A DNA stretch of 52,033 nt. It comes from an uncultured Verrucomicrobia subdivision 3 bacterium. Its GTDB lineage: Bacteria; Verrucomicrobiota; Verrucomicrobiia; Limisphaerales; UBA11358. Both the position numbers and the translations under genes were made by a program. The first letter of the stretch is position 1. Each line of letters begins with the position of its first letter. This document shows, in pieces, positions 7,501-27,539 of the stretch. The DNA lies in NCBI GenBank assembly GCA_903850425.1, contig CAINLR010000102.1, positions 1 to 52,033 of the forward strand, written 5' to 3'. Under the pieces are notes generated by a model, which did not search any database, was not told the DNA's origin, and saw only the letters and a program-made list of their open reading frames with translations.

Positions 7501-8020
7501 TTGGCGCGGGGAAAGCCAGCACGGCGACATCTTGAAACGCACCTTCTGGTTGGGGGAGTTTCCCGGAAAAATGTTGCGGCCCCGGCAAACGGATTTCTGA
7601 AGAAACCAAGTGGCGCATCGCCTGTTCCGGCTTCACCCACGGACCACCCGACTGGCTCCAGCCGGGCGAATTGAAAACGCCGATGTCCACGCCCAGCCGG
7701 GTGCCTTCACGAACGGCATGAGTCATAGTCGCCCAGAATGGTTCGGACAACACCTTCACAGCGCCCGGAGCCAGCCGGCTTTGGTCGGCGATGATTCCGA
7801 TATAGGCCTCGCCAATGCCGACCCGCCGCATCGCCTCCAGATCTTTGGTGATTCCGTTCGTGGTAATATTGCCGTCCATCCAATACCAGTAACAGCGGGG
7901 CTTGGTCGCGGCGGGCGGCGCGAGAAAATCTTTTGCCAAGTCAGCCGCGCGAGCGCCCAGCAGCGTTGAATGCCAAATCACACCCAGACATATCATTCGT
8001 ATCAGCATCAATTTAATCAT
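4505..8020 (-). CDS. Secreted GH106 alpha-L-rhamnosidase
   Basis: A 1171-residue exported enzyme expected to release terminal alpha-L-rhamnose from polysaccharides. The signal peptide covers about residues 1-25. The mature protein opens with the GH106 hallmark: 'PP...KPRCYWYWMDGNITTNGI' around residues 35-57, then KDLEAMRRVGIGEAYIG, and further on FNSPGWSQSGGPWV. The catalytic barrel extends to about residue 760 and includes MWLENYGHWGFPSEFLLYGG and EAWTGGPMDLSTPWSLKQRG. The C-terminal 150 residues form a galactose-binding-like sandwich (LELGEVQALAQVKLNGHELG ... VRVANLWRNRMIGD), usual for this family. Length is normal for GH106. It starts 48 bp after the CotH/lamin-tail gene and ends 9 bp before the next gene, so it lies in the same operon. 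I did not assign the catalytic residues. Confidence 0.88.
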   Translation of the reverse strand: MIKLMLIRMICLGVIWHSTLLGARAADLAKDFLAPPAATKPRCYWYWMDGNITTNGITKDLEAMRRVGIGEAYIGIIADQSRLAPGAVKVLSEPFWATMTHAVREGTRLGVDIGVFNSPGWSQSGGPWVKPEQAMRHLVSSEIRLPGPQHFSGKLPQPEGAFQDVAVLAFPAPKDDAESADKVGGKISKTPGMVTIELPQPFTARSLTVTPSERINVAAELQVSDDGKTFRLIRKFNIDRHNLNVEVGPTPLAPVVVAFPATTARVFRLQLSAQNILGNVQLSGAARVDSLAEKSLEKVFQDPQPPFSFYSWPQQAEPDSPERVIATALVQDLSQKLRPDGSLEWDVPAGDWVVQRIGMVPTGTKNCPASPEATGLEVDKMNRTALKTHFDAYIGNLLGRLPAAERKSWKHVVADSYERGPENWTDGFAALFQQRYGYDPIPYLPVLTGRMVGGADQADRFLWDLRRLVADRVALDYVGGLRDLCHEYGFKMWLENYGHWGFPSEFLLYGGNCDEISGEFWESGDLGSVELRDAASAAHTYGKNQVFAEAWTGGPMDLSTPWSLKQRGDWAMCQGINQFVFHVYIHQPWEDRQPGVNAGFGTEFNRHNTWFEMSGGWIDYLRRCTVLLQAGVPVADVAYFIGEDAPKMTGIRQPELPPGYDYDYINGDVLLHRARVEHGQLILPDGMSYRLLVLPPSETMRPETLAKIKSFVDSGLAVMGPLPARSPSLQGYPACDATVQSLAAELKSRVRADGDIRAALQVLPDVGGLNPAQILFKHRRDGDTDMYFLSNQADTTAQLMPAFRVTGKVAELWHPDSGEIERLASATSDGVTRVSVTLAVRGSVFVVFRSPSKGFESVASFTRDGQPVTPVMSKPPLIKISKATFGVPGDTARTRDVRSEVQSLVNAGEVDFPVGKLTAAGDPAYGVVKTLVVAYTADGRPFTISEREPNSIHIGRPISEVSRAAEVRSSKDGQLSIVASQPGKYELKLAGGKTQRAEISAIAPAQEIVGTWDIRFPPKWGAPEKITVDKLASLSESTNAGVKHFSGTMTYTKAFDWKPAAQVGKQKSEIWLELGEVQALAQVKLNGHELGTLWQPPFRVNITDALQTGHNALEVRVANLWRNRMIGDAALPAAQRFTWSSSAQFSPDTALPKSGLLGPVTIRTTGIVQLP

Positions 8021-8068: not shown

Positions 8069-11000
8069 CTAAGGCAAGGCCAGTAATCGGTAGAACCGCT
8101 GGGGGCTGCCGGTCATGTCATCAGAAACCGTTAGCGACGATCCGGTGCCGACAATCGTCCCGCCTAGCACCGTCCAAGTGGCGGCGGACAACTGGTCTTT
8201 GAATTGGACCTGATAATGTTGTCCCAGCAGGGTGTTGAACGTGAGTTGAATCTGGCCGTTGCTGCCCGCCGCCGCCCCGGTGAATTGCGGCAGCCCGGCC
8301 ACGAAGACGGAAAAAGTCCGAGCATCGCTCAAGGGCGGCGTGCCGTTGTCGGTCACGCGCACGGTGACTGAATTAGTGCTCGGCGCCGCGGCATTGGTCG
8401 TCACCCACACGAACGCCCCGCTGGATGCGTTGATGCTCGCGCCCGCCGGGGCATTGGTCAAACTGAACGTCAGTGACTGGTAGGCGCTCTCGGCATCGGT
8501 TGCCACCGCCGTAAATTGCACCGTCTGGCCGACGTGCACTGATTGGTTGCTGATGCTGGCCAACCCGGGCGCGGTGTTGGGAATGACGTTGTTCGTTTGC
8601 GGCGTGGGCGTGGGCATGAAGAAAAAGTTCTGCGCGCCGTCAGGAAAACGGCCCTGACTTTGATCGGTCGTTTGGGGGCCAAACGTCAACGCATCAATCG
8701 TGGTGCCGTCGGCGGCGAACAAACCGATGGCCTCGCCAGCCTTGCTCAACTTGAAATTCACATGCAATTCCGGGCGGGTGAGGCTGTTGGAAGCGCTATT
8801 GTTGTCCGCCCAGACGACGCAGAAGCCGTGAGGCGGCACCAGATATTGATGAGTATTCGGCACCAGGAATTTAGTCTTATTCGTGAGCGTGCCGGTGAGA
8901 TAGTAGCCGCCGAGGTCCACGGTGTTAGTGCCATAGTTATAGAGTTCGAACCAGTCGTCAAATTTTCCGCCCGCCGGATCGGTCAGGGTGTGGCTGTTGT
9001 CGGCCATCCATTCGTTGATGAGGATGGAGATCGGTGCCGCGGTGTTGGTGTTGAAGGCGGCGGGCGTGGCGACGAACATCGGCTGGCGATAGAACGGCTG
9101 GCCGTCGGGATAATCGCCGTAGGTCCAGTTGGCCGGCAGGTTGGTGTAGGTCAGATAATCCACGAGCTGGGGGACGTTGGTATTGATGAGGCGGGACAAC
9201 GCGACGCGGCCGGCACCGGGTGCCAGCATAAAACTGGTGTGTGGCGCGTTGGTGGTGGACTGATTGGTCTGACCATCGCACCATACTACTAGGAAAGCGT
9301 TGGAGCGGATGAAGACGTTGGTGGGAAAGGCCCACTGAGTAAGGTTGGTATAGCTGCTGGCGAGGTAAAGTCCGGTGAGGCTCAAGGCATTGGTGCCGGG
9401 GTTGTAGAGTTCAATCCACGGAGCATTGGTGCCGAAGTTATTCGTCGGGCCGCTGATGTTCACAGCTTGCAGTTCATTCAACCACACGTTGGGGAATGCG
9501 GGCAAGGTGGCGGTGACGGAGTTGCTGGCATTGGGCGTGGCGGCAAGGGGAAGCACGACCGCGGCCGGTGCGGGATTGGTGGTGATGGCGATGCCATTGC
9601 CAGAAAAGCGGACGGTGAGCGGACCGCCATTGGTGGTTTGCAGATACCAAAAGCTCAGGGTATAGGTCGCCCCGACCGTGAGCTGGCCGGAGAAGTTCTG
9701 CCAGATTGCTGAGTTCTGAGTGGTGCCGCCGGAGGAAGCGACGAGATGCAGACTGCGGCTGCCGGAATGAGTGGCATTGGTGCTGACGACCGAGGCGCTG
9801 TTGTTGCCGTCGCTGCCGATGGTCCACGGAGTTAATGAAGTCTCGAAGCCGCCATTGGTAACGACATTGACGCCGGACTCCGCCACGGAACCGGCCACCA
9901 CGCTGACGTCATCCACATAGATATCGCCGGCGGATTGGAGGTAAATGTAAAGCGGGGGCGAGCCGCTGGCGCGCGGAATGCCGGTGGCGCTGACACGGAC
10001 CCATTGCGGTGTGGCCGTGGTTGTGACCGGCACGGCCGTCCAGTCGGCCACGCGGCTGTTGTCCTGCGCGGCATCGATGAGTTGCAAGGACGCGCCGTTG
10101 GTGATCACCGGCCACGGGGCGACCGGCTCATAGCGCACGCGGTCCACCACCACTTCCTGATTCGTCTGCGCCGGGTCGGGGCGGAACAGTGTGAGGGTCT
10201 CGCCCTGGGGATCAAGGTTGCCGCTGTATTGATCGAAAGGCGGCGGGCTGGCACCATACGCGGCGGCGAAAGCCGTCTGATCTTTGGCCAGAACCAGGTA
10301 ACTCCTGGGGGATAAGCTGCTGCCCGCCGGGAAAGTATAACCCAATCCATTCACCCGCCAGCCGCTCATATCAAAGCTGAAGTTGGTCGAGGCGTTGTAT
10401 AGCTCGACATATCCGGCATTCGTCACCGGCGGGCCATACATGATTTCATTGAGAACCACCGTCTTGCTGGGATCCGGAATGGTGCCTTTGAAGACGATCG
10501 TGCGCGTGGTGTTGGTGACGAGATTGCCATACAGGTCATAACCTGTGATGTTCAAAATGTTGGTGGCGTTCGCGACGGGAATTTGCACACTCCAGCCGTA
10601 TATCGAACTCCACGTCACTGGATAAAGAACGCCGTTGATGCGGATGGTTGTGAGTGCCACCGGTGCCGTTCCACTCAACGTAACCAGATTGTTGTTTGTC
10701 ACGCTGACCGGATTGCCGCCGTTCACTCCAAACGGCGTGTTGCCACCCTCACTGCTGATGACCCCCAATGCATAGCTGCCACGCTGCGTGATGTAATCAA
10801 GGTCGCCCGACCAATCCTGGCCGGGAAAGGAGTCGTAATGGCTGATCCACGGGGCCATGTAAGTGGCGTTGAAAGTGGTCGCAATGTCGTCCTGGATGTG
10901 GGCGTATAAGCGCCGCAGGTTGCCGGGCAAGTTGATGATCTTGGACAGATTTTGATCGCCCACCAGCGGAGCCGTGCTGGCCAGACTGAAGGAAAAATCC

Positions 11001-14000
11001 ATATCCCAGGGAAAATACAGCATCTTGCCGTCGCTCGGGCGGACATAGTTCATCCAGTTATGATCGTTGCCAAACGTATACATGTCGGCGATGCCGCTCA
11101 AGCTGACCAGCGCATAGACTTTCAACCATTCGTCCACATCCATCGTGGACTGCGTCGCCGCGTCCAGCGCGGTGCCGTTCAAGTTCCACTGTTTGGCAAA
11201 ATTGATCAGCGTGGAGTAGTCGTCGGTGTTGCGATGGTTCTTGATGATGAAGTTATAGCGATAGGCTTCCTTGGAATTGCCGAGATCTTGAATATCCACG
11301 CCCTGCACGTTGTCGGGGTCGGGGAGTTTGTAACCGCCGGCATTGGCCGTCAGCGGATAGTAAGTCAGTTCGTATTCGTAGAGAATGCCATTGCTGCCGT
11401 TGGTATAGGTCGTGGTAACAAAATTATCCTCGTAACGCGGCGAAAGAATCGCCCAGCCATTCTGAGCCGTCTGCGGTGCGATCACCCGGCACAAGTCGGA
11501 ATTCACCGTGGGCGCGCCGGCATGGTTCACCATGTGCTTGATGACAATCTCCTCCTGCTGCGGACGGTTGCCGCCGCCGGAACGATCCACGAGCATCACG
11601 GGATGCACGCCGCGAAACAGTTGGTCGGGATGAAACTCCAGATGGAAGCCGATGCGGGTTGGATCCACCCGTCCGCGCTCGCTGCTCTTTAGCCGGACCA
11701 GCATGTCGTAATAAACTTCCTGCTCGTCATAGATCACCGTGCAGGGCAGGTTCTCGTTGCTCATCAAGTTGGTGACGGCATATTGCAACGAGATATTTGC
11801 CGGCGACATCAGGATGCGAAGGTTATGCGCCTTGGAAATATCACCCAGTCCGTCATTGACGCGGTAGAACGCGCCGGAGTTGGTTCCTTTGGCCGGATAA
11901 GTGGATGCCGCACCGAGTCCATCCACCGCCCGCACATAGAACTGCACCAGGCTGCTGGTCGGCTGCTTCGGAATGGTGCCGGCATAAACGCCATTGGTCG
12001 GCGTCATCGGCGCACTCGCCCACGCGCCGCCATTCACCGAATAATAAACGGAACACGAACTCACGCCCTGCGGGTCCTGGGCGTTCACAAAAACCGTGAC
12101 CGGCTGATAGGACTGCGGCACCACGGGCTGATGCTGGAACCGTGCGAACGTCGGACCGATGTTTGTGGCATAGACCGAGTTCACCGCGCCCGGCGTGCCG
12201 TTCAACTGCGGATAAGGCAGCGCCGTCGTCTGCGCCACGCGATCAAAGTAGAGTCGCGTGTTCAACAAGTTGTTTCCCGAAATCCATCGGGCGCGAAAAG
12301 ATATTTCATACAACTGACCATTGGCCACCGGTTGCGCCATGGTCTGCTCGATGTGATTGTTCATGTGCTCCTGCGGGCCGCTTGCAATGATGTGCAACAC
12401 ATGATTGCCCGCATTGGACGGGTCGGTTTCCACCAGGCTGTGCTGGTGATTGCCGAGCAACCGCCAGCCGGCAAGTCCGTTCTCAAAGTTGCCATTGGTG
12501 ATCAACTGCACCGGGTTATTCGTCGGCGATTGGATCACGCTGATGTCATCCACCCAACATTCGCCATCCGTCAACAGGCCCATGACAAAATCCTGCCACT
12601 GGGTGTCCGGCGCGGAGGTGGAACTGGGCTGCGCGACCATGCGGTAGGTAAAAGTCTGCCACGAGGATTTCGTGGATTCGATGCTCGGCGCCCACGCCTC
12701 GCCTTTGGAGTTATCCGCTTGAGGATCGCGCAATTCCAGACTAGGCCCGCCACCGCCGGGAGATTCCGGCCAGCGTCCGCCCGGAAAATAATTCACCTGA
12801 TTGGCCGGATTGCCCAGTGGATCGTTCAGCACAATTGAATCGCCGCTGCTGCTCAAGTGCCCGCTGTAATTGCCCACGATGCTTATGGCAGGATAAATGG
12901 TTTGCAAAGCCGCCGCCTCCGCCGCCACGACCAGATAACCTCTGGGCGCGATGGTCTTGCCGGCGGTGAAGGAGTAACTAATGCCGCCAGATAAGGTCCA
13001 ACCGGTCAAATCTACTGTGTTGGAACTGCGATTGTAGAGTTCCAGCCATTCTTCGGGATTGCCCTGCGGCAGCGAGTTGCTGTTCACCGCCGGAAAAGCC
13101 TTGTGGTCATACATGATCTCATTCACCACCAGTTCGGTGCGGAAGGCAAAGCTGTTGCTCGCGCCTGGCGTCGGCAAATTGGGAACCAACCAGATTCCCG
13201 TTCCGTCCGGATACCGCGCGCGCGGTGTTTTCTTCAGCACCAGCCCGTCATAGACCGATGAGTAATTAGTCGCGAACAAAACCAACTTATCCCCGGTGGC
13301 CGGCGAGATGAAATTCAGCGTGCTGTTGGACAGCACCAGGAAAGCGCCGGCGTTGATGGTCGTGTTCAGAGGAAACACATAGTCGGTGTTGGTCGCGCCG
13401 TCGTGATGCAGGATGCAGTTGCCCAATGAAACCGAGTTGGTTCCATAGTTAAATAATTCGACCCAGAACAGCAGGTTGGTGGTGCCGGAATGTTCGTTGA
13501 ACGCCACCGTCACCGGCGCGGGCGGGGACACGAAATTTTCCGCGCCCGGCGTGCCGCCGTTCTGCCAGCTCGCTGTCCAGTTGGCAGCCGAGGCACTGCC
13601 CCAATCATGATTGCGCTTGGACAGCGATGGCCCGGCACCATCCGGTGTCACCGGCCAGTCGCCGGAAGTCCCATAGGTGACGCTGTCCATCAGCCGTCCC
13701 GAGTTATTATAGAGATTCAAAGTGCCGCCGGCATTGTTCAAGGGACTTACAAACGGGCCAAACACATTGGACGACAGCCCTGTGGCAGCCATCAACGTCG
13801 TCGGATTACGCGCCAGCACAATATAACTCCGCCCAGCCACCCGTGTGCCGGGCGAAAAAGTATAAGCGGTATCTCCACTCACTCGCCAGTTGGAGATGTC
13901 CAAGTCCACAGCAAGCTGATTGTAAAACTCCACATACTCCATTCCCGCTTCGTTCGTGGAGGGATGATACATGATCTCATTGAACACCAGCGTCGCATCC

Positions 14001-15301
14001 GCGCTGTTCGCGCTGCTGGTTGGCACGGCGGTGTTCAAAGTCACCGCGCCCGCCGTTCCGCCGCTGCCGGGGATGCCTTCCAGGATGATTTCCGCATAGC
14101 CGGAATAGCCATAGTCAATGCTGCTGGTTTGCGGTGTGAAGTCAAACGTCACAAACGCCACGTTCGTAGCGAGCGGTGCCGCCGTCGAGGAAGCAATGGC
14201 CACCCGGTTCGCCGACACCCCTGTCACCGGCGGGTTGTAACTGACGCTGGTAAGTGGGATATATATGGAAGGGTTCGCCACCGTAGAGTAAGAAATATTG
14301 TAGAACTGACCATCGCGATTTTGATCCGGCCATCCGCTATAGACGACGATGTTGGTCAGGGTCGCACCATTGAGATAGTAAGTCACTGACTGCCCGGCGA
14401 GGCTGCCGCAAGTGGCATAGGATGCCCGGTTATCCGCCGCGCCAAACGTGCCGTCCGTCAGCGCACCGATACCGGTGACGCCGGCTTCATAGGAAAAATT
14501 TCCACCCCCAACCGAGCTGGGCGACTGGCCGGCGATCAGGCTGTCCGATTCAATCGGCCAGGTCGGAGTGAATGACCCGCCGCTGAACTGGTTGGACGTT
14601 GTAATCAGTATCGGCGGCACGACCAGATTGGTTGCCACGCCCCCTTGCACCGTAATGGCGGTATAACCGACCGAGCCGTTTTCCGAAGGCGGCGTGGTGA
14701 AATCAAACTTCAAGGCGGCGACGCTTCGGGCGATTTTACCTCCCGAGGCGTCATTGATGATCACCCGGTTGGCGGAGCCGGTGCCAGCCGGAACGCCCAG
14801 CGGAGAATAATTCACCGTGGTCAACAGGTTAAAGTTTCCCGGGTTAGCGACGGTGGAATAATAGACGGTGTAGGCCTGCGAATCACGGCCATTATCCTGC
14901 CAGCCGCCAAAGACAGTAATATTGGTGAGGTCGTATCCGTAGCTCGAAACGGGCAGAGCGTAAACGAGCAATGATCCAGCCGAGCCATCATCGCCGCAGA
15001 CCTCAAGGTTGGTTGCCTGAACGCTGCTGTAGGCGTTAATGGTCAGCGAAATACCGGGCATTGTAAGGTTGTTGACGTTCGCGCCGGTGTATTGGCTGAA
15101 ATTTCCGGACACAACCGTGGGAGTCCGCCCGGCGATCAGGCTGTTCGCGGCGGCCGACCAAGTGGGCGTGAGCGGCACGGGCCCCATCTGGTCAGATCCC
15201 GCAACGGTGATTTGCGCCGGGACCGAATTGGCAAAAAGGAACAGCGCGAGCAGCGACGTTCCAGCGACGATTTTTAAATGGAGCAATTGTGATTTCTTCA
15301 T
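8069..15301 (-). CDS. Giant secreted lamin-tail/CotH kinase-like multidomain protein
   Basis: A 2410-residue secreted protein with a signal peptide at residues 1-30. Two related beta-sandwich repeats of about 190 residues follow (about 31-225 and 232-410, both with 'PTW...DSLIAG/NSLIAG' and 'YSTVANP'). Next come lamin-tail-like domains near 437, 597 and 724 ('NEIMY...EYVEFYN' type), a carbohydrate-binding-like segment (about 880-1040), an Ig-like segment, and a CotH kinase-like domain at about 1155-1500 with HNWMNYVRPSDGKMLYFPWD and MDFSF. Three more lamin-tail domains, a second CBM4/9-like module, a cadherin/He_PIG-like domain and a C-terminus ending FYRLLALP complete it. CotH of Bacillus phosphorylates coat protein serine; activity here is unproven. 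Binding or surface anchoring of glycans is plausible given the glycosidase neighbours. It probably begins a transcription unit, since 457 bp precede it. Confidence 0.85.
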   Translation of the reverse strand: MKKSQLLHLKIVAGTSLLALFLFANSVPAQITVAGSDQMGPVPLTPTWSAAANSLIAGRTPTVVSGNFSQYTGANVNNLTMPGISLTINAYSSVQATNLEVCGDDGSAGSLLVYALPVSSYGYDLTNITVFGGWQDNGRDSQAYTVYYSTVANPGNFNLLTTVNYSPLGVPAGTGSANRVIINDASGGKIARSVAALKFDFTTPPSENGSVGYTAITVQGGVATNLVVPPILITTSNQFSGGSFTPTWPIESDSLIAGQSPSSVGGGNFSYEAGVTGIGALTDGTFGAADNRASYATCGSLAGQSVTYYLNGATLTNIVVYSGWPDQNRDGQFYNISYSTVANPSIYIPLTSVSYNPPVTGVSANRVAIASSTAAPLATNVAFVTFDFTPQTSSIDYGYSGYAEIILEGIPGSGGTAGAVTLNTAVPTSSANSADATLVFNEIMYHPSTNEAGMEYVEFYNQLAVDLDISNWRVSGDTAYTFSPGTRVAGRSYIVLARNPTTLMAATGLSSNVFGPFVSPLNNAGGTLNLYNNSGRLMDSVTYGTSGDWPVTPDGAGPSLSKRNHDWGSASAANWTASWQNGGTPGAENFVSPPAPVTVAFNEHSGTTNLLFWVELFNYGTNSVSLGNCILHHDGATNTDYVFPLNTTINAGAFLVLSNSTLNFISPATGDKLVLFATNYSSVYDGLVLKKTPRARYPDGTGIWLVPNLPTPGASNSFAFRTELVVNEIMYDHKAFPAVNSNSLPQGNPEEWLELYNRSSNTVDLTGWTLSGGISYSFTAGKTIAPRGYLVVAAEAAALQTIYPAISIVGNYSGHLSSSGDSIVLNDPLGNPANQVNYFPGGRWPESPGGGGPSLELRDPQADNSKGEAWAPSIESTKSSWQTFTYRMVAQPSSTSAPDTQWQDFVMGLLTDGECWVDDISVIQSPTNNPVQLITNGNFENGLAGWRLLGNHQHSLVETDPSNAGNHVLHIIASGPQEHMNNHIEQTMAQPVANGQLYEISFRARWISGNNLLNTRLYFDRVAQTTALPYPQLNGTPGAVNSVYATNIGPTFARFQHQPVVPQSYQPVTVFVNAQDPQGVSSCSVYYSVNGGAWASAPMTPTNGVYAGTIPKQPTSSLVQFYVRAVDGLGAASTYPAKGTNSGAFYRVNDGLGDISKAHNLRILMSPANISLQYAVTNLMSNENLPCTVIYDEQEVYYDMLVRLKSSERGRVDPTRIGFHLEFHPDQLFRGVHPVMLVDRSGGGNRPQQEEIVIKHMVNHAGAPTVNSDLCRVIAPQTAQNGWAILSPRYEDNFVTTTYTNGSNGILYEYELTYYPLTANAGGYKLPDPDNVQGVDIQDLGNSKEAYRYNFIIKNHRNTDDYSTLINFAKQWNLNGTALDAATQSTMDVDEWLKVYALVSLSGIADMYTFGNDHNWMNYVRPSDGKMLYFPWDMDFSFSLASTAPLVGDQNLSKIINLPGNLRRLYAHIQDDIATTFNATYMAPWISHYDSFPGQDWSGDLDYITQRGSYALGVISSEGGNTPFGVNGGNPVSVTNNNLVTLSGTAPVALTTIRINGVLYPVTWSSIYGWSVQIPVANATNILNITGYDLYGNLVTNTTRTIVFKGTIPDPSKTVVLNEIMYGPPVTNAGYVELYNASTNFSFDMSGWRVNGLGYTFPAGSSLSPRSYLVLAKDQTAFAAAYGASPPPFDQYSGNLDPQGETLTLFRPDPAQTNQEVVVDRVRYEPVAPWPVITNGASLQLIDAAQDNSRVADWTAVPVTTTATPQWVRVSATGIPRASGSPPLYIYLQSAGDIYVDDVSVVAGSVAESGVNVVTNGGFETSLTPWTIGSDGNNSASVVSTNATHSGSRSLHLVASSGGTTQNSAIWQNFSGQLTVGATYTLSFWYLQTTNGGPLTVRFSGNGIAITTNPAPAAVVLPLAATPNASNSVTATLPAFPNVWLNELQAVNISGPTNNFGTNAPWIELYNPGTNALSLTGLYLASSYTNLTQWAFPTNVFIRSNAFLVVWCDGQTNQSTTNAPHTSFMLAPGAGRVALSRLINTNVPQLVDYLTYTNLPANWTYGDYPDGQPFYRQPMFVATPAAFNTNTAAPISILINEWMADNSHTLTDPAGGKFDDWFELYNYGTNTVDLGGYYLTGTLTNKTKFLVPNTHQYLVPPHGFCVVWADNNSASNSLTRPELHVNFKLSKAGEAIGLFAADGTTIDALTFGPQTTDQSQGRFPDGAQNFFFMPTPTPQTNNVIPNTAPGLASISNQSVHVGQTVQFTAVATDAESAYQSLTFSLTNAPAGASINASSGAFVWVTTNAAAPSTNSVTVRVTDNGTPPLSDARTFSVFVAGLPQFTGAAAGSNGQIQLTFNTLLGQHYQVQFKDQLSAATWTVLGGTIVGTGSSLTVSDDMTGSPQRFYRLLALP

Positions 15302-15758: not shown

Positions 15759-18700
15759 CTATTCCTCCTCCCGCAGCAATGTCACCGGACCCAACAATCC
15801 CGATTGGATTAAGGTCGTCTTCTGGGTGAGCATATCGAATCGAAAAGCGTCGTGGGTTTTGGTGAAGCGTTTTTCTTTGGGCTGGCTAAGATCGCCGATG
15901 ACGCGGTTCGCCCAGAGATTGATGACGTCAATTTCCAACTCGTTGCCGAGGGGTTTGACGGCCTCGGTAATCTCGACGCGCCAAGGAAAACACCAGAGGA
16001 GGCCGAGTTCCTTGCCGTTCACTCGCACGGCGGCGACTTCTTTGACATCGCCCAAATCGAGGAAGAGGCGCTGGCTCTTTCGGCGGGTTTCTTTCACTCC
16101 CCCGGCGGCGTCGCTCAAGTCGAATGTTTTCCGATAGGTGGCCTTACCCGAATAAAACTTAATTCCCGCGTCCGGCCGTTGCGTCCAGTCTGCCAGCTCG
16201 AGAAATTCGGCCGTGGTGGGACCGCCCCAAGCCGAATCGAAGGCGACGTGCCAAGGGCCATCGAGATTTTGCGCTTGGACGAGTTTGGGGAAATTACTTT
16301 CGGCTTCCCCCGCCACCGCATTGGCAATCGGCTTGCGAAACACTACGAAATACGAGCCGAAACGATCGAACTCCAACGGCAACGTGGTGCAACCGTCGGC
16401 TTGGCGAAAAGCTTTTGCCGAACGGATCACGCCGCTGACAGGATCAAAAATCTCAGGCTGCCTGCCAGTGACTCGGAAGGAAATATTTTGCGTGGCGGGC
16501 TGGTTTTTACGGTTGCTGACAAAGTAAATATCGGCATCGGCGGACGTGCGATGGATATAGTCGAAATGATCTGGGTGCTCCGCCTGGCCCGCGAAGGTGC
16601 AGTCCGGCTTCACCCCCTCGGCGAGTAAAACTTCGCGGGGCGCTTTCCCCCAAATGACCCGACCTTTTCCGAAGTAACGCTCGGTCCGATTCTGGCCGTC
16701 CAGCTCGCCCCAAATTTCGGCAGCGATTCGTTCGACTTCGGCATCGCATTTTGGATAGTCCTTCAGTCCGGCGGATTTCTCGGGCGGCGCACCAATGATC
16801 GTTGCTCCGTCGCGGACTAACTCCCGAAGTTTCTTGATGACCTCGACCGACATAGCTTTCGACGGGATTGGAGAAACCGTCAAGCTTTGATAACCTCCGA
16901 CTCGCCGGGCAATTTCCGGCACCGGAGAAACGCAATTTTGCAACACCAACAGCCGATAACTCATACCATCCGGCAGCACGATCCGTCCGTTTTTGACAGA
17001 CATCCGTTTGAGCAGCACTTCGGCATTGCAGTAATCACAGTCGTAGCCAATGCCAAGCCCGGGGACGATGTATTTGGGCGGAGCCAGGGACGGCGGCTCT
17101 TCTCCCAAATAGAAACAAACGTCGGCGGCAAAGTTCCCCTGTTGCAGCATATAAGAGCAGCGGGAGAGAAACGTGAAGAAGGCTGGCGACTGTTCCCACC
17201 AAGTGATGTTTGGGGTGAAATGTTGACCGGCGCAAAATTCATAGCCCGGCTTGCCATCTTCCGGCGGTTGGCAGGTTGCCTGATGCAGCATGATGCGATT
17301 AATCCCCCAGCAAAAGGCGTCGTTGGCGTAGGGTTTTAATTCGGCCGGACCAAACGACCAATGGGTGCGATCACCTTCCATTTGCGTGAACGACTCGGCT
17401 TGGGCTTGGCGTCGCCCATAGACATGCGCAGCCGAGGCGGTTTGTTTAAGATTTAGCTTCAGCCCTGGGTCAGGGTTGTAATGGTCGGGTGCGTTGTAGT
17501 TCACCCAGAACTCGCCGGCGGGAAAGTCGCAGCGACCTAAGTTCTTTAACGCATCTTCGGGCGGAATATTGTTCGGGCCAGCCGCTTCATTCCCCATAAT
17601 CAGGCCGTGCCGATGGCACACGTCGGCAAAATGACCATAGAAGTTATCCGCCAGGCAATCTTGAATGGTGCGATCGAAGTCCGCACGGAAGCGGGCGGTC
17701 ACATCGTCGTTGACAATGGTAACGCCAGTGCCCGGCTTGTAATTTCCCACCACGATCTCATCCATTTTGACATTCCACGTTTGGGCGTTACCGGGTCGTT
17801 GCCCGGCACAGAAAGTAATGGTGTAGGTTTTTCCAGGAATTAGGCCAGCGATAGCCTGCGAGATCGTTCCAGTCGCTTGAAGAAATGCCGTCTGACCGCC
17901 CTGCGGCGCATTCGGATTCCCAAATGCGCTGCCATTGCCACAAAGACCAGAGCCAGTCGGACTGGAACCATCACCGCTGAAAGTCCACGTGCCCCCCGAA
18001 GGATTATATTGATGTTTACCAGTGCCCATCCGCGGCGACTCAAAACCAGCATTTGTAATCATCACGGACTTTCCATCCGATGAAAGCAGTTGCACGTTGT
18101 CGAGGAAAACGGTGTGATCGCCCCCCGCCAGATCGGTGCCCACGAAAGCTAGAGTTTGCGCGTCAGCCTTAGCCGTGAAGGTTGCCGTATAGTCCGCCCA
18201 ACTGATTGCGCCCGGCAGCGCGGGCAAGTAGGGTTTGAGGTCGTAGCCCCTATACTTGCGGAACTGCGCTTGAAAATCCTGCGTCCAAGTGAGCTTGCCG
18301 GCTTCCCAACTGTCCGACCAGAAATACGCGAGCTGCCCGCCGGCAGCGCGCGCCGCTTTGAGAATCGGTTCCCCGAGATGTTTGAAATGATCGTCGAACG
18401 CTGAAGCATTGAGGAAGTCTATCTGATAGCCGGCGCCACCGGCGTAGGTATCGCCGTTCGGGTAGGCATGCTTGAATTGCCCTTCCGTCGTGACCGTGTA
18501 GCCAGTTCGGAGAATGGTCCACCGTCCTGCCGGCACGTCCCACTCCAATTGGCCATCGGGTTTAAGTTTATGGGTCAGCTCAATGACATCTCTTGGATTA
18601 ATCGCCACGCCCGCAATTCTATGCGGGATGGCCTGCACGCAATAGTCATGATAGTAACCGTCCACCGTTTCGGGTTGCGGAAGTTTAGCCGACAACTTTT

Positions 18701-19166
18701 TCGGACCTTCGACATTCAAATTCGCTTGCACGACTTTCTTCATGGCAAGGTCGGGCGTGACCCAGGGCCCCAGCATCACCCAGCAACTCGCGGAGAGATT
18801 GAAGCCCAACTCGATATTGAGCCGCCTGGCCTCTTTAACGGCGTGGCGGAAGAGTTCCCACCACTCCGGGCTTTGATACGTCACGCCCAAGAGCGGCGAG
18901 GTGCCGGCATAGCCGCCGTTGCAGATCAGATTGACGCCGCTGATCCCTTTGTCCTTGAATTGCTCAAGATCGCGAGTAATGCCGGCTTTGTCCACGCGAT
19001 TGTATATCCAAAACCAATACACTCGCGGTTTGGCGGAAGCGGGTGGATTGGCGAACCCTGTTTCAAGATTTCCTTTCCCCAAAACCTCAGTTTTGGAGAT
19101 GAAGACCATGGCTGCGACCAAGGCAACGGAAAGAAAAAAACGTAATCGCTGCCAAACAATGCTCAT
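15759..19166 (-). CDS. Secreted GH106 alpha-L-rhamnosidase with an inserted binding-like domain
   Basis: An 1135-residue exported protein (signal peptide about 1-30). The GH106 signature 'PP...KPRVYWFWIYN...GITRDLEQFKDKGISGVNL' sits at about residues 41-80, and SASCWVMLGPWVTPDLAMKK at about 125-144. Catalytic-domain segments continue with YFWSDSWEAGKLTWTQDFQA (281-300), FADVCHRHGLIMGNEAAG (513-530) and AESFTQMEGDRTHWSFGP (590-607). The C-terminal sandwich (LFLDLGDVKEVAAVRVNGKE, VINLWANRVIGDLSQP) is as in the other GH106 here. Between YLPALPG (313-319) and VNDDVTARFRADF (485-497), which adjoin each other in ordinary family members, about 160 residues of a foreign beta-sandwich are inserted. 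It precedes the 457-bp gap and follows a short GH78 by 77 bp. The GH106 call is firm; substrate detail is inferred. Confidence 0.86.
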   Translation of the reverse strand: MSIVWQRLRFFLSVALVAAMVFISKTEVLGKGNLETGFANPPASAKPRVYWFWIYNRVDKAGITRDLEQFKDKGISGVNLICNGGYAGTSPLLGVTYQSPEWWELFRHAVKEARRLNIELGFNLSASCWVMLGPWVTPDLAMKKVVQANLNVEGPKKLSAKLPQPETVDGYYHDYCVQAIPHRIAGVAINPRDVIELTHKLKPDGQLEWDVPAGRWTILRTGYTVTTEGQFKHAYPNGDTYAGGAGYQIDFLNASAFDDHFKHLGEPILKAARAAGGQLAYFWSDSWEAGKLTWTQDFQAQFRKYRGYDLKPYLPALPGAISWADYTATFTAKADAQTLAFVGTDLAGGDHTVFLDNVQLLSSDGKSVMITNAGFESPRMGTGKHQYNPSGGTWTFSGDGSSPTGSGLCGNGSAFGNPNAPQGGQTAFLQATGTISQAIAGLIPGKTYTITFCAGQRPGNAQTWNVKMDEIVVGNYKPGTGVTIVNDDVTARFRADFDRTIQDCLADNFYGHFADVCHRHGLIMGNEAAGPNNIPPEDALKNLGRCDFPAGEFWVNYNAPDHYNPDPGLKLNLKQTASAAHVYGRRQAQAESFTQMEGDRTHWSFGPAELKPYANDAFCWGINRIMLHQATCQPPEDGKPGYEFCAGQHFTPNITWWEQSPAFFTFLSRCSYMLQQGNFAADVCFYLGEEPPSLAPPKYIVPGLGIGYDCDYCNAEVLLKRMSVKNGRIVLPDGMSYRLLVLQNCVSPVPEIARRVGGYQSLTVSPIPSKAMSVEVIKKLRELVRDGATIIGAPPEKSAGLKDYPKCDAEVERIAAEIWGELDGQNRTERYFGKGRVIWGKAPREVLLAEGVKPDCTFAGQAEHPDHFDYIHRTSADADIYFVSNRKNQPATQNISFRVTGRQPEIFDPVSGVIRSAKAFRQADGCTTLPLEFDRFGSYFVVFRKPIANAVAGEAESNFPKLVQAQNLDGPWHVAFDSAWGGPTTAEFLELADWTQRPDAGIKFYSGKATYRKTFDLSDAAGGVKETRRKSQRLFLDLGDVKEVAAVRVNGKELGLLWCFPWRVEITEAVKPLGNELEIDVINLWANRVIGDLSQPKEKRFTKTHDAFRFDMLTQKTTLIQSGLLGPVTLLREEE
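17724..18209 (-). other. Apparently permuted carbohydrate-binding-like domain inside GH106
   Basis: Residues about 320-481 of the GH106 protein. In the planctomycete/verrucomicrobial domain type I recall, the order is 'NAGFESP...TWTFSG...GNPNAPxGxQxAFLQ...VxVDGxVVG' and then 'YxTxxFTVxAGxHTxxFxGxxxxGGDNTxFxDNV'. Here the second half comes first (YTATFTAKADAQTLAFVGTD ... HTVFLDNVQLL, 326-361) and the first half follows (ITNAGFESP ... GNPNAPQGGQTAFLQ ... WNVKMDEIVVGNYKPG, 370-479). The domain thus looks circularly permuted and inserted in a loop of the catalytic domain. Confidence 0.6.
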
Positions 19167-19243: not shown

Positions 19244-21670
19244 TCAGTTGCCAGCAATTTCGCACGTAAATTGATGCTTGCCGGGTCCGATCTGGAAAAT
19301 AACCCATCTACCATACTCCGACCAAGCTTTGACTTCTGGTCTTTCAGCCAATGCCTTTTGGTCTATTTTCACTGTTTTCAAATCAGTAGCTGGCAGATAT
19401 ACCGTGGCCAGCGTTTCCTTGGGGACATTTAGTTTCAGTTTGAAATGATGCCCGGCCGCTTTCTCCCAGTCAGTCGTAATGTCTCCCGCCACCGTAGCAA
19501 CCGTTCCTTTGGCCCATTGCAAATCACCGGTGTATGGTTTTACCACAAATGTTTTCCAGCCATATCCGGTGGGTTCAAGCCCGAGCACCTTTTGGGGAAG
19601 CAAAGCGCTGGGACCGGAAGACCAGGCATGTGACGTTGATCCCCAAGGCAGGTCCCAGCCTTCATGCCAAGCCCCATTGAATGAGGCGAGCTTGGTTTGT
19701 TCGCCCCAATTCTTACGCATGTAATCCAGTGCCCATTGATCCTTACCTGCTGTGAACATCGAGTTCAACGTCCAATAGGCGAACGATTGCTCGCTGGCTT
19801 TGCCCCGCTTCATGATTAGATTAATCATGTCAGCTTTTCGACTTTCGTCGGGCAGTCCGTAAACCAAGGCGTAAACCTGCGGCTGTTGTCCGATCTTGGT
19901 GCCGGCATAACTATCCAAGTAAGCCCGGTCGCTTTCCGACCAAAGATTTTTATTAATGTTGTCCTTGAGCGCTCTCGCCTGTTCTTTCCATCGTTCCGCC
20001 TGCTTTTCAGCGTGGGCAAAATCGGTGGCGATGGCTGCGGCCGCATTCAACGCTCCATAATACTGACAGTTGAGTCCGGTGACGATGCTTTTCCGCTCCA
20101 TCTGATAGGTGTTAGGCCAGTCGAGCACAATCCAGCCGGGTAGATTGGCCAGCAAACCCGTTTTCGGATCGACGAAGGGCTGAAAATAATCCATCGCTTT
20201 TTTCAAATTGGGATAGAGATTTTCAATCAGTTCGTCCTTGCCATAATACAAAAAATACTCGTGCAGCATCAGCACCCACTCGAGCTGGTAATCCGCGATA
20301 TAGGTGGAACTGCCGGGTTGCAGGAAATAATCCGTGGGATAGCGGCTGCGAACGGCGCCGTCATTTCGCCAGCGCTGCGACTGGGCCCCGCATAAGAGGT
20401 TGTAGGCTGATAAAAACCTTGAACTTTTGCCAAAGGCATAATTGCCGTAAAGCAACATGTAACGCGAATCGCCGGCAATATATTGCGTGCGTTCACGCCA
20501 GGGAGAGTCCATATAGGTGTCTATCGAACAGAGCCGCAGGGTGTGTTTTCCGACCTTCCAGAATTCGTTGAGCTGGGGATCGGAACATTCAAACGAACCG
20601 CGCATTTCATAGTTGTAGCAGGCAAACTCAGCATCGACTTTCTTGATCTGAATACCCGGGTTCGTCTCCATTGAAAGGTAGCGAAAGGCCATCCAAGTGT
20701 AGGGCCGCCAGCTTTGAAGTCCTTCTTGAGTCGTGTATTGGTCGGAATGGTCTCCGCTGGCATGGAACATCGGCGCGTTGTTCGTATCCAATCGTTCACC
20801 GGTTCCAATTTCTAATGGAATGCCGGACTTGGCGGCGTTGATGGTGAATTGTGGGTAGCCAACGACCTCAGTCCCAAAATCGTAAACCATCAAGTTGCCG
20901 GCTTGCCATTGGCGGACCGGTTTAACTACCCTTCGATCTAGCTGCGGGCGTTCTGTCACCACCAGACTGTTCCACGGAGCCACCGGAGGAATACCGATTT
21001 CTTTTGCATCCTCCCAAGTTGAATCGTTGAACCCGGGATTTTGCCAACCAGCGGGCCAGAGTCGGGCATCGAATTCTTCGACAAATCCAATCAGGTGAGC
21101 ATTGGGGTCGCGAAGGCGCGTTTGCGTGTTCCAGGCTTTGGCTTGGGTCACCTTCCAACTCTTGTCGCTCAAGAGGTTGATAGATGAGCCGCTGGGATAG
21201 TCAAGCTTTGCCTGAAAGAAAAACCCGCCCTGGGCATTCATTTGGGAGTGCAACCCCACGCCGAAATTATGCACCACAGCCGAGAGGCAGTTTTCACCTT
21301 TGTGGAGGTAGCGCAAAATGTTGAAGTGATCGTAGCACTGATACTCCGGGTCGCAGTTCATCGGACAACGTTCCAACAACTTGCCGTTGATATACACATC
21401 AGCATAAGCATAAGCAGAAATGTAGGCGTTGGCTTCTTGTGGAAGCTTGTTCAAACGGAAGGTTTTTCGGACGAACAGGTAATGGTTCTGCGGATTTTCC
21501 GCTCCCGAATCCCAGATCCAACTGGCCAGTGGTTTTACCCCGTTGAGCGTTGCGGAAGCTGTCGAGAGGAATGAGTTTTTGCCCCAGCGATCCTTCAAGT
21601 CTTGAGGTTGCGCTGGCAGGCCAGGTGTCAAACTTAGACTTAGCAGGACAAATAATAAGGTGCTTTTCAT
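19244..21670 (-). CDS. Secreted GH78-type alpha-L-rhamnosidase (short form)
   Basis: An 808-residue exported protein with a signal peptide at about 1-20. Beta-sandwich modules come first: 'ASWIWDSG...NHYLFVRKTFRL' at 49-73 and DVYINGKLLERCP at 91-103 form a rhamnosidase N-domain. The (alpha/alpha)6 domain starts near residue 355 with RGSFECSDPQLNEFWKVGKH. The GH78 acid region is present as DSPWRERTQYIAGDSR (388-403); Glu393 aligns with the family's general acid region (D-x-P-x-R-E/D-E). A second motif, AWHEGWDLPWGSTSHAWSSG, is where the proposed base usually lies. It lacks the N-terminal Ig-like domain of the longer GH78 in this window, which explains its shorter length. It sits 108 bp from the preceding gene and 77 bp from the next in a same-strand run. 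Substrate is inferred to be rhamnoside; some family relatives act on other 6-deoxysugars. Confidence 0.8.
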   Translation of the reverse strand: MKSTLLFVLLSLSLTPGLPAQPQDLKDRWGKNSFLSTASATLNGVKPLASWIWDSGAENPQNHYLFVRKTFRLNKLPQEANAYISAYAYADVYINGKLLERCPMNCDPEYQCYDHFNILRYLHKGENCLSAVVHNFGVGLHSQMNAQGGFFFQAKLDYPSGSSINLLSDKSWKVTQAKAWNTQTRLRDPNAHLIGFVEEFDARLWPAGWQNPGFNDSTWEDAKEIGIPPVAPWNSLVVTERPQLDRRVVKPVRQWQAGNLMVYDFGTEVVGYPQFTINAAKSGIPLEIGTGERLDTNNAPMFHASGDHSDQYTTQEGLQSWRPYTWMAFRYLSMETNPGIQIKKVDAEFACYNYEMRGSFECSDPQLNEFWKVGKHTLRLCSIDTYMDSPWRERTQYIAGDSRYMLLYGNYAFGKSSRFLSAYNLLCGAQSQRWRNDGAVRSRYPTDYFLQPGSSTYIADYQLEWVLMLHEYFLYYGKDELIENLYPNLKKAMDYFQPFVDPKTGLLANLPGWIVLDWPNTYQMERKSIVTGLNCQYYGALNAAAAIATDFAHAEKQAERWKEQARALKDNINKNLWSESDRAYLDSYAGTKIGQQPQVYALVYGLPDESRKADMINLIMKRGKASEQSFAYWTLNSMFTAGKDQWALDYMRKNWGEQTKLASFNGAWHEGWDLPWGSTSHAWSSGPSALLPQKVLGLEPTGYGWKTFVVKPYTGDLQWAKGTVATVAGDITTDWEKAAGHHFKLKLNVPKETLATVYLPATDLKTVKIDQKALAERPEVKAWSEYGRWVIFQIGPGKHQFTCEIAGN

Positions 21671-24233: not shown

Positions 24234-27200
24234 CTATTTTAGCTTGGAAACAAACAGGTAATTTCCGGAACCAATTTGGAAAACCATTCGGCCAGTTTCC
24301 TGTCGCAAAAATTTAACGCCTTTGGCCTTTGCCACCGGCTGGCCGCTTTCGCTAATAGATTCAAGATCCTTGGCCGGCACATAAACCGTGGCCGTCGTGT
24401 TAGCCGGAATGGCAACTTGCAAATCAAACCGGCTGGCGGATTGATGCCATTCGCTCCGAATGCGTCCGTGTATGGAATCATATTTCGCCTTGGCCCAGGT
24501 GAGATCGCCAACTGGTTCGGGCTTGATGATAATTGTTTTGAAGCCCGGCGTGCCCGGGCGAATGCCAGCCACATATTCATGCAACCAAATGTTGAGGTCG
24601 CCGATGAGCATGACGATGTTGCGGGAATTCATCCCGGCATCAGCCGTGTCGCCGTTCCACAATTCCCACATTGTCGTGGCACCTTTGGAAATCATGTAAC
24701 CCCAGCTGGGATAAGTCGTCTGCGTCGCAATCGTGTAAGCCAGATCGGAGCGGCCATTGTCGGACAACACGCGCATCAAATAATGTCCGCCAATCAATCC
24801 GGTGCCGAGGTGATTGTCGCTTTCCACCGTGATTTTTTTGACCAGGTGCGCAAATACGTTTGCTTTGAATTCATCCGGCACCATGCCAAACGCCAGTGGC
24901 AGGATGCAGGAGGTTTGGGTGCCGTTGTCGTAGTAGCCACGCTCGGAATTATAGTAGCGATGGTTGAAAGCAATTTTGACATTTTCGGCGAGCGCCTCGA
25001 AATGTTCGGCATCGGTAGTCTTGCCTAACAATCGCGCCGAACGCGCCATGAGTTGCAGGTCATGATAGAAGATCGCCGTGCTCATCATGTTGCCATCGGT
25101 GGTCAACTTCGGATCGGTGGAATTGATCACCGTCATCTCCGCCGGTGACCGCGGCGGAAAACACCAGTCGCCGTAGGTGTTCCGCGGCATGAGATCGTTC
25201 TCCAAAAACTTCGCCATGTAATCCGTCCAATGCTTCAGCGAGGCGTAGTGTTTTTGCAGAATTTCGACATTGCCATATTGATCGTAAAGCATGTTCGGGA
25301 CGATGGTGTAAGTGCTGGCCCAAACAACGCCGTCCTGATAGAGCGGCCAGAATGCCGGACACACATCCGGCACGCTGCCATCGGCACGCTGGGTGTCTTG
25401 GATGTCGGTGAGCCATTGGGCATACAACGGGGCGATGTTGAAGAGATACGTTTCGCCTTTGGAAACTTCTTGCCGGTCGCCCATCCAGCCCTGGCGTTCA
25501 TCGCGCGGCAAGTCGGTGGGCAGACTGCGGTAGTTATCGCGCACACCCCAATAGATATTGTGATAAATCTGATTAATCAACGGATTAGACGTGGCGAACT
25601 CGCCGACTTTGGGCAAGGCGTCATGAACGACTTTGCCTTCAAGCGCGCCCAATTCCGGTTGGCCGGGAAAGCCGGTGACTTCCACGTAACGAAATCCGTG
25701 ATGAGTGAATCGCGGCTCGTAAGTTTCGACACCCTTTCCTTTGAGCGTGTAACTATCCTCCGCCTTCGCGCTTCGCATGTTGGCGGTGTAGAGCGTGCCG
25801 TCTGGATTGATGCCTTCCGCGTGCCGAAGTTTCACAACCGTGCCCGCCGGCCCGCTGACCTTCAAACGACACCAGCCCGCCATGTTCTGGCCCAAGTCGT
25901 AAATGTAGATGCCGGGCTTTGGCTGGGTGAGCGCAACCGGCTTGCGCGTTTCCAAAACACGAATCGGTTCGCCCATTTGCGCCGACAACACGGGCGCACC
26001 GGGTTTCACCAACTGCACGCGCTCCCATTTGGAAGCATCGAATCCGGTCTGATTCCAACCGGGCATTTCCATCCGCGCATCGCACACTTCACCGTCAAAC
26101 TCATTGTTGGCGCGGATTGGACCAGCATCAGTCACCTTCCAGTTTTCATCACTAACCACCTGCGTCGTCGTGCCGTCGGTGTATTCGATATTCAGTTGCA
26201 ACCGCAGCTTGGGATAACCAAACGTCTCGCAGGCGGCCGGCACTTTCACACGCGGCGCATAATAACGGCCATTGCCAAGCATGACGCCCATGGTGTTGTC
26301 GCCACGCCGGACTTGACCCGTCACATCATAGGTCACATAGAACGCGCGCTGGTCATACGAGGCGATGGCCGGCGACAGCACGTCGTCACTCACCTTCCGG
26401 CCATTGAGATATAATTCGGAGAGACCCAGTCCGCAGACGTAAGCCGTGGCGCGACGCACTTGTTTCTCCGCCGGGAATTCTCGTCGCAAATAACGGGCGG
26501 GCAACGGCCGGTCGTCGGTTTGAATGCGGCCCCAAATTTGCGTGCCATATTCTCCCAGCAGTTTTGCCGGCACCCACGCGGTGTCGTCAAAGGCCAACCC
26601 CGTCCAACCCGTTTCCACATGGGTCGCGGACTGCCAATGTTCGCCTGTGAGCAACGTGAATGGAATTCCTGATTTGAATTCAACCTGCAGCTTGGCCAGC
26701 ACACCGGCCGGGTTGGGTTGGTTTCCCACATTGCGAGCGGCCACCGCCACAACATTTTTTCCCGGCTTCAACCCGGCACCGATGGCGATTTTTTTAGGTG
26801 ATGCCCAACCCTCGCCCGCGCCGGCGGGCTGGCCGTTGACAAACAAATCGAATTGATCGTCCGCCGTGATGGTGATCGCCGCCGCGCTCACGGGAACATT
26901 GGTCGGCAGTTCAAAAACGCGACGGAAGTAGCGGGTGCAAATCGGGGCGCTGTCAGCCGGGTTTCCCTCCGGAAACCAGATCCACTGCGCGCCGCCAAAA
27001 TCATTGGCTTGTTCGCCTCGATCCAATCCAATCCACTTTCCTTGCCAGTCACTTGGTTCCAGCAGGCCCATGCTCCACTGGGCGGGTGCGCTCCAGTCCG
27101 ACGCCTTGCCATGCTTATCCCAAATCTTGACTTTCCAAAAACATTGCCTGCCGGAAGTGAGCGGTTTGCCCGAATAGAGAATGCCGACGCTTTCATCGCT

Positions 27201-27491
27201 CAGGGTTTTGCCGCCATTCCACAAATCGCCTTGATTGTGCTGGAGAATTTCTTTGGAGCTCGCCACCAGAACGTGGTAAGCAGCCTGCCCTTGGTCGCGT
27301 TCGCCCGATTGCACCTGCCAGAACAAACGCGGCTGGGCCACGTCAAGCCCCAGCGGATTGGAGCGGTATTCACATTGTAAGTTCACCGGCACAACGGCTG
27401 CCACCAGCGGCCAAACGCCGGCCAGCATAAAGAGGACAGTGATCAGAACCGTCATCATCAGATTCTGTTTAAACCGGCGCTTAGTTTTCAT
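24234..27491 (-). CDS. Secreted GH78 alpha-L-rhamnosidase (long form)
   Basis: About 1085 residues from Met at 27491, which starts a basic n-region and hydrophobic core (KQNLMMTVLITVLFMLAG); an upstream Met at 27539 would add 16 residues. Domains in order: an Ig-like N-domain (VNLQCEYRSNPLGLDVAQPR, the usual GH78 opening), an extra sandwich at about 165-270 (AQWIWFPEGNPADSAPICTR, DDQFDLFVNGQPAGAGEGW), the conserved rhamnosidase N-domain (RATAYVCGLGLSELYLNGRK), and the (alpha/alpha)6 domain. The signature DLPRDERQGWMGDRQE near residues 660-675 contains the expected general-acid Glu, and TTMWELWNGD near residue 943 the expected base. All motifs are intact. It is the first gene of the minus-strand block and is divergent from the UroD gene, so the 450-bp space upstream should hold its promoter. 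Confidence 0.9.
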   Translation of the reverse strand: MKTKRRFKQNLMMTVLITVLFMLAGVWPLVAAVVPVNLQCEYRSNPLGLDVAQPRLFWQVQSGERDQGQAAYHVLVASSKEILQHNQGDLWNGGKTLSDESVGILYSGKPLTSGRQCFWKVKIWDKHGKASDWSAPAQWSMGLLEPSDWQGKWIGLDRGEQANDFGGAQWIWFPEGNPADSAPICTRYFRRVFELPTNVPVSAAAITITADDQFDLFVNGQPAGAGEGWASPKKIAIGAGLKPGKNVVAVAARNVGNQPNPAGVLAKLQVEFKSGIPFTLLTGEHWQSATHVETGWTGLAFDDTAWVPAKLLGEYGTQIWGRIQTDDRPLPARYLRREFPAEKQVRRATAYVCGLGLSELYLNGRKVSDDVLSPAIASYDQRAFYVTYDVTGQVRRGDNTMGVMLGNGRYYAPRVKVPAACETFGYPKLRLQLNIEYTDGTTTQVVSDENWKVTDAGPIRANNEFDGEVCDARMEMPGWNQTGFDASKWERVQLVKPGAPVLSAQMGEPIRVLETRKPVALTQPKPGIYIYDLGQNMAGWCRLKVSGPAGTVVKLRHAEGINPDGTLYTANMRSAKAEDSYTLKGKGVETYEPRFTHHGFRYVEVTGFPGQPELGALEGKVVHDALPKVGEFATSNPLINQIYHNIYWGVRDNYRSLPTDLPRDERQGWMGDRQEVSKGETYLFNIAPLYAQWLTDIQDTQRADGSVPDVCPAFWPLYQDGVVWASTYTIVPNMLYDQYGNVEILQKHYASLKHWTDYMAKFLENDLMPRNTYGDWCFPPRSPAEMTVINSTDPKLTTDGNMMSTAIFYHDLQLMARSARLLGKTTDAEHFEALAENVKIAFNHRYYNSERGYYDNGTQTSCILPLAFGMVPDEFKANVFAHLVKKITVESDNHLGTGLIGGHYLMRVLSDNGRSDLAYTIATQTTYPSWGYMISKGATTMWELWNGDTADAGMNSRNIVMLIGDLNIWLHEYVAGIRPGTPGFKTIIIKPEPVGDLTWAKAKYDSIHGRIRSEWHQSASRFDLQVAIPANTTATVYVPAKDLESISESGQPVAKAKGVKFLRQETGRMVFQIGSGNYLFVSKLK

Positions 27492-27539
27492 GGGTCGTTG
27501 TTTGAGGATTGTGCGCAGTGACGAGAGACACAGGTTCAT

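Follow-up and report, generated by a model that had tools for sequence, protein, structure and literature searches.

A DUF642-like domain with swapped halves inserted into the catalytic domain of a putative GH106 rhamnosidase from an uncultured verrucomicrobial bacterium

The window analysed here, a stretch of 52,033 nucleotides from an uncultured Verrucomicrobia subdivision 3 bacterium, carries on its minus strand a rhamnosidase cluster of two GH106 and two GH78 genes (4505-8020, 15759-19166, 19244-21670 and 24234-27539). ORFs of 873, 573 and 810 aa in the cluster gave no Pfam match at 1e-5, and between the two GH106 genes (8069-15301) lies the gene for a 2410-aa protein with six lamin-tail stretches, a CotH kinase domain and a CBM_4_9 domain. 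At 29083-31341 of the window, a 752-aa ORF fuses fatty acid desaturase, Rieske and NAD-binding oxidoreductase domains. The GH106 gene whose features are given in Table 1 encodes a protein with a signal-like segment at its N terminus, as judged from sequence, which scores 558.8 bits against the curated profile PF17132 (Glyco_hydro_106; cut-off 29) and matches the rhamnoside jelly roll NF045579 at residues 968-1094. In the related enzyme BT0986, the available text of PMC6828813 gives E461 as the proposed acid, E593 as the base and D458, S459, E538 and E561 as calcium ligands. By alignment to solved chains, these residues correspond to E288, E591, D285, S286, E527 and E552 of the window protein, and all six equivalents, which lie on both sides of the insert, are invariant across an alignment of five proteins. 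The product, predicted to release rhamnose from polysaccharides, most likely stays a secreted rhamnosidase.

Table 1. Features of the insert-bearing GH106 gene (positions in the window) and of a second protein with a swapped unit
Feature	Position	Strand	Basis
GH106 alpha-L-rhamnosidase gene (predicted), 1135 aa	15759..19166	minus	four PF17132 stretches, E 2.9e-167
First part of GH106 catalytic domain, aa 33-319, up to ..YLPALPG; has D285, S286, E288	18210..19070	minus	alignment to 6q2f_A, 5mqm_A
E288, counterpart of BT0986 proposed acid E461	18303..18305	minus	alignment to solved GH106 chains; invariant in five-protein alignment
gccgggc, upstream junction (codons P318-G319 and preceding base)	18210..18216	minus	sequence
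Insert, C-terminal half of DUF642-like domain, aa 320-358	18093..18209	minus	profile 110-150 at aa 318-358 (44.3 bits, E 5e-15 for a 4-protein search)
Linker, old C terminus to old N terminus, aa 359-371, 13 residues	18054..18092	minus	lies between both profile matches
Insert, N-terminal half of DUF642-like domain, aa 372-479	17730..18053	minus	profile 1-112 at aa 372-480 (119.3 bits, E 4e-38 for a 4-protein search)
gccgggc, downstream junction (codons P478-G479 and preceding base)	17730..17736	minus	sequence; 7 bases identical to upstream junction
Second part of GH106 catalytic domain, aa 484-745; has E527, E552, E591	16932..17717	minus	PF17132 339-600 at aa 480-745
RHS-repeat protein, 1586 aa, from genome G071 (same class, different family)	L126:4693-9450		RHS_repeat, 107.8 bits

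The first-pass annotation had described some 160 residues at 17724-18209 as interrupting the GH106 domain, and these coordinates proved right. On the minus strand the segment encodes residues 320-481, and its two flanks meet in the alignment with 6q2f, where query residue 321 falls on residue 539 and query residue 481 on residue 537, with nothing extra in 6q2f and about 160 residues extra in the window protein. We compared the spacing of the flanks at this site in 50 GH106 ORF records, which were drawn non-randomly from the fetched loci, some of them overlapping: it is -2 to +15 residues in 41 of them, and the other nine have 159-162 extra residues. The nine records stand for four proteins plus overlapping copies of their loci, and two pairs among the 41 are one gene each (L011/L016 and L008/L010). 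Alignment to other GH106 proteins thus locates the insertion, and the 41 insert-less records show that the first half of the segment does not belong to the GH106 fold. Together, these comparisons support residues 320-481 as an insertion into the GH106 catalytic domain. A clade of four GH106 proteins (L008, L027, L037 and L046) has a natural loop of 4-15 residues exactly at this spot.

The internal order of the insert was read against profiles of the domain. A profile from copies in other proteins was used first and gave 129 hits, and a rebuilt profile of 150 positions was made from normally ordered copies. The whole domain is present once in the window insert with its order swapped, positions 110-150 preceding positions 1-112, and the doubled match is limited to positions 110-112. 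Three further inserts (L052, L053 and L054) are split nearly as the window's is. At the level of sequence the insert is a circular permutant, as the first-pass annotation had proposed from its reversed halves, in that all segments occur once, their order is swapped and the old termini are linked; the complete swapped domain is present in all four proteins. The two halves complement each other, so the first is not a second, truncated domain. Pro-Gly stands at each junction in the window protein (LPG/AISW and KPG/TG); elsewhere, L053 retains both PG pairs, whereas the upstream one is EG in L052 and the downstream one PR in L054. AlphaFold2 modelled the insert alone with a pLDDT of 61.7, model residues 52-86 and 92-108 lying below 50, and the full protein, from an alignment of 5 sequences, with a pLDDT of 47.7. 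A Foldseek search with the insert model (pLDDT 61.7) returned no match at E<=0.001, and VIA with the same weak model gave a best Z of 7.0 to generic sandwiches, with rows of CBM-bearing carbohydrate esterases at a Z of about 6. The models being too poor to show the fold, we place no weight on these generic matches; the permutation claim is made on sequence, and as such we regard it as strong.

The source of the insert is a DUF642-like domain. An unpermuted copy from the same genome (L018) passes the DUF642 profile (PF04862), whose cut-off is 27, with 33.4 bits. As it stands, the window insert reaches 25.8-25.9 bits, below the cut-off, and with its halves reordered 30.8 bits; the L053 insert passes as it stands with 29.8 bits and rises to 34.4 when reordered. 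The permuted forms also match an HpiC1-like profile (25.6 bits in the window and 29.1 in L053; cut-off 27), which is unlisted for the reordered forms, these being without the linker; the loss of this match counts against the explanation proposed below. On the window insert the CBM_4_9 profile (PF02018) remains below its cut-off (17.4 versus 25.9), and the Pfam match of CBM60 to two array proteins (see below) stays under the threshold. The normal order prevails among the profile hits: 120 of the 129 are single near-full matches in that order, overlapping loci being counted repeatedly, and among the nine partial hits two are the swapped halves of one RHS protein and the others lie at frame ends or are shortened. 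Isolated swapped units occur in 16 of 97 ORF records with hits, which were likewise taken non-randomly from the fetched loci, with overlapping copies among them; the 16 amount to six proteins, four GH106 and two RHS. Weak swapped-order hits in ORFs of 850-1530 aa were considered as further isolated permutants, and those fetched (L115-L117, L124 and L125) turned out to be divergent arrays or to hold several normal copies. We infer that the insert is a complete, permuted galactose-binding-type beta-sandwich of DUF642-like kind, with a predicted fold.

The same site and order recur in three other MAGs, with identities over the protein of 77% (L052, labelled Akkermansiaceae), 78% (L053, or G008:C146, Verrucomicrobia subdivision 3) and 73% (L054, Capsulimonas, Armatimonadota, a phylum label that derives from MAG binning); the collection scan that gave these relatives detects close ones only. 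Their gene neighbourhoods differ: the next genes in L052 resemble the GH78 genes of the window (24-48% identity) and L054 has other genes around. The inserts form one clade (SH-aLRT 95) and so do the hosts with the insert removed (SH-aLRT 100), which fits one event. Over six pairs, dN/dS is 0.12-0.23 for the insert and 0.07-0.12 for the catalytic part, ratios that are rough at a dS of 0.8-1.8; dN in the insert exceeds dN in the catalytic part by a factor of 1.6-2.9, at an insert dS of 1.0-1.8 that nears saturation. The insert is constrained, less so than the enzyme. Genome surveys took in 387 phylum-wide, 49 genus and 320 order genomes, which partly overlap, and a full-length match covering the insert and both flanks was found among the matches listed only in the window's genome and in G008; the genus survey scored all first-look candidates, and the phylum-wide and order surveys the best seven or nine per genome. 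With no further full-insert GH106 in these surveys, the inserted form looks rare. In a plasmid collection, two records covered 62% and 70% of the insert and none covered at least 80%.

Normally ordered copies also occur head to tail. Eight direct arrays in large proteins have linkers of 9-13 residues and a start-to-start period of 154-159 residues (154 in L057, L093 and L119; 155 in L121; 158 in L058, L122 and L123; 159 in L118). From A320 to G479 the insert measures 160 residues including its 13-residue linker, which is about one array period in shifted phase. One continuous stretch of an array protein in G008:C308 aligns to window residues 318-481 with 59% identity, and one in G032:C67 to residues 317-479 with 54% identity; the G008 genome has both an array and an insert-bearing GH106. 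In all eight arrays, the stretches that match the insert have the complementary halves on either side (L120 is the L093 protein). Pro-Gly occupies the cut position in 28 of 36 normal copies inspected. In the window's own genome the two copies are not directly tandem, some 104 residues lying between them, which counts against the explanation proposed below.

A second swapped unit was found in an RHS-repeat protein (Table 1), in which profile positions 101-150 match residues 1207-1257 and, after 8 residues, positions 1-96 match residues 1266-1352. Other RHS proteins of that family, those of G709, G729, G731 and G767 among them, are without the unit, and their flank matches (4-64 and 211-270) adjoin. 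A truncated RHS fragment in G742 (L147:4453-5004) has the same junction and is 64% identical over positions 5-172. The RHS cut lies near profile positions 96-104, about ten residues before the GH106 cut at 110-112. In a quick tree with several long branches, the RHS pair joins three other copies, one of them from Planctomycetota (SH-aLRT 92), inside a subgroup that also holds GH78 copies (91), and the GH106 inserts (95) lie apart from it, both inside one 16-row group (92). A common permuted ancestor of the GH106 and RHS inserts is disfavoured, at moderate support, by these separate subgroups and by the differing breakpoints. With the same moderate tree support, the RHS unit is probably an independent event, and permuted insertion would then have happened twice. 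Neither the array origin nor the RHS case had been noticed in the first-pass annotation.

We propose that one period of a head-to-tail DUF642-like array was copied, out of phase, into an ancestral GH106 gene at the site of a surface loop and folds there as a permuted accessory domain. The captured order would be the C-terminal half of one copy, the linker and the N-terminal half of the next copy. The cut would fall at the Pro-Gly that precedes the strand TSYTxYTATF in most copies and that matches the host's own Pro-Gly in the LPxLPG loop, and capture could have proceeded by template switching or through an excised circle between two Pro-Gly sites, the sequence fitting either. A microhomology of 6-7 bases could nevertheless arise fortuitously where Pro-Gly codons are rich in G+C, and neither L052 nor L054 keeps it. 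The inter-domain linker would join the old termini, and the new termini, both in one loop, would leave the domain attached to two host segments that lie side by side. The host keeps its active-site residues, and the insert, placed on the catalytic face of the barrel, would help to hold a polysaccharide substrate. As a whole, we consider this explanation probable. By extension, arrays could donate out-of-phase cassettes of one period to loops of unrelated proteins, permutation and insertion coming about in one step, with GH106 and RHS as two landings; this broader reading is tentative, and we would put its chances somewhat below even.

Several other accounts of the insert have to be weighed. 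The assembly comprises 197 contigs, of which the window is one, and a misassembled or chimeric MAG contig could in principle join pieces in this way; three further MAGs, whose records carry different prefixes, nevertheless show the same in-frame arrangement at 73-78% identity. The conservation in four genomes, the single clade and the dN/dS values therefore lead us to conclude that the insert is not a misassembly, an explanation to which we attach practically no probability. The same conservation bears on the idea that the halves are unrelated remnants, a truncated end followed by a truncated start, and not one folded unit. The insert-only model is weak at residues 52-86 and 92-108 and dN exceeds that of the host, which speaks for this idea, but the halves are complementary, both have been kept in the four genomes under the constraint noted above, and the RHS case retains nearly the same complementarity (1-96 and 101-150), so that this reading appears very improbable. 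Duplication followed by trimming, the textbook route to circular permutants, deserves more weight: had a whole tandem pair been inserted first and its outer halves been lost later, the product would look identical, and direct tandem pairs exist. Against this, no record among the 50 for GH106 has two copies or a copy and a half, both ends fall together at Pro-Gly and the doubling is confined to positions 110-112 of the profile. We therefore hold trimming to be unlikely, at perhaps one chance in several, and prefer capture of a single array period.

What the captured domain does is a separate matter. The insert lies between E288 and E527, and a helix at about residues 487-519, taken from the secondary structure of a poor model (pLDDT 47.7), precedes the strand adjoining E527. 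By the established topology of beta/alpha barrels, a helix leading into a strand begins at the catalytic face, and on this ground the insert should sit there; the first-pass annotation had suggested that it could bring a carbohydrate-binding surface next to the active site. Normal-order copies stand behind a GH78 catalytic domain in 8 of 15 proteins scanned (L098-L102 and L112-L114), a hand-picked set. In the window's own genome (C141), the large protein encoded at L059:4784-11407 combines Ig-like domains and autotransporter-type repeats with two DUF642-like copies, and its frame runs into the beginning of a 1019-aa GH78 ORF (11322-14381; Bac_rhamnosid6H, 396.7 bits). By analogy with this GH78 company of the normal copies, and given the rhamnosidase cluster, the insert is expected to be a substrate-holding, sugar-binding-like accessory module. 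Some DUF642 and HpiC1-like folds are not sugar binders, and the insert could instead be a spacer, a stabilising domain or a mediator of protein contacts. According to the available text of PMC7848910, a GH10 xylanase was still catalytically active after excision of its inserted CBM4 domains, which fits such a role. The association of the normal-order relatives with GH78 rhamnosidases, including the overlapping gene pair of the same genome, speaks against it, and we judge a role without sugar binding unlikely, yet the most plausible of the alternatives considered here. If the insert does hold substrate, the permuted attachment may turn its binding face to the host active site in a way barred to a domain with normal termini.

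Domain nesting and circular permutation are both familiar on their own, but the route of a permuted domain into another one is rarely traceable. Here the likely donor arrays, the product and two hosts are all visible, and a route by capture of one period becomes testable. Profile searches can also under-score permuted modules: with DUF642 (PF04862), the unpermuted parent and the reordered window insert pass the cut-off, whereas the insert as it stands falls below it, and accessory domains of CAZymes may be missed in this way. The solved GH106 structures, BT0986 (5mqm and 5mwk) and 6q2f, have the catalytic domain in common with the window protein, and BT0986 the six active-site residues as well, but in the alignments they are without a comparable insert at the insertion loop. 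The CBM36/CBM60 pair offers a natural circular permutation between CBM-like domains, as in the insert, but one that is not known to be nested in a catalytic domain. Among the literature matches listed (titles and abstract openings of open papers), none joined natural permutation of a binding module with insertion into a glycoside hydrolase. In the GH10 xylanases Xyn10C and Pm25, inserted CBM4 domains lie between beta3 and alpha3 of the TIM barrel (PMC7848910), so that binding domains interrupt a TIM-barrel catalytic domain as in the window GH106; they differ in that the available text does not describe the CBMs as permuted, in that homologs carry one to three of them, and in the glycoside hydrolase and domain families involved. 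Similarly, SusG has CBM58 inside its GH13 catalytic domain, although enzyme and CBM are of other families and the same text does not describe this CBM as permuted (PMC7848910). Inserted CBM-like domains are thus known, and what is new in the case described here is that the inserted domain is permuted, with its likely donors visible and a second example at hand.
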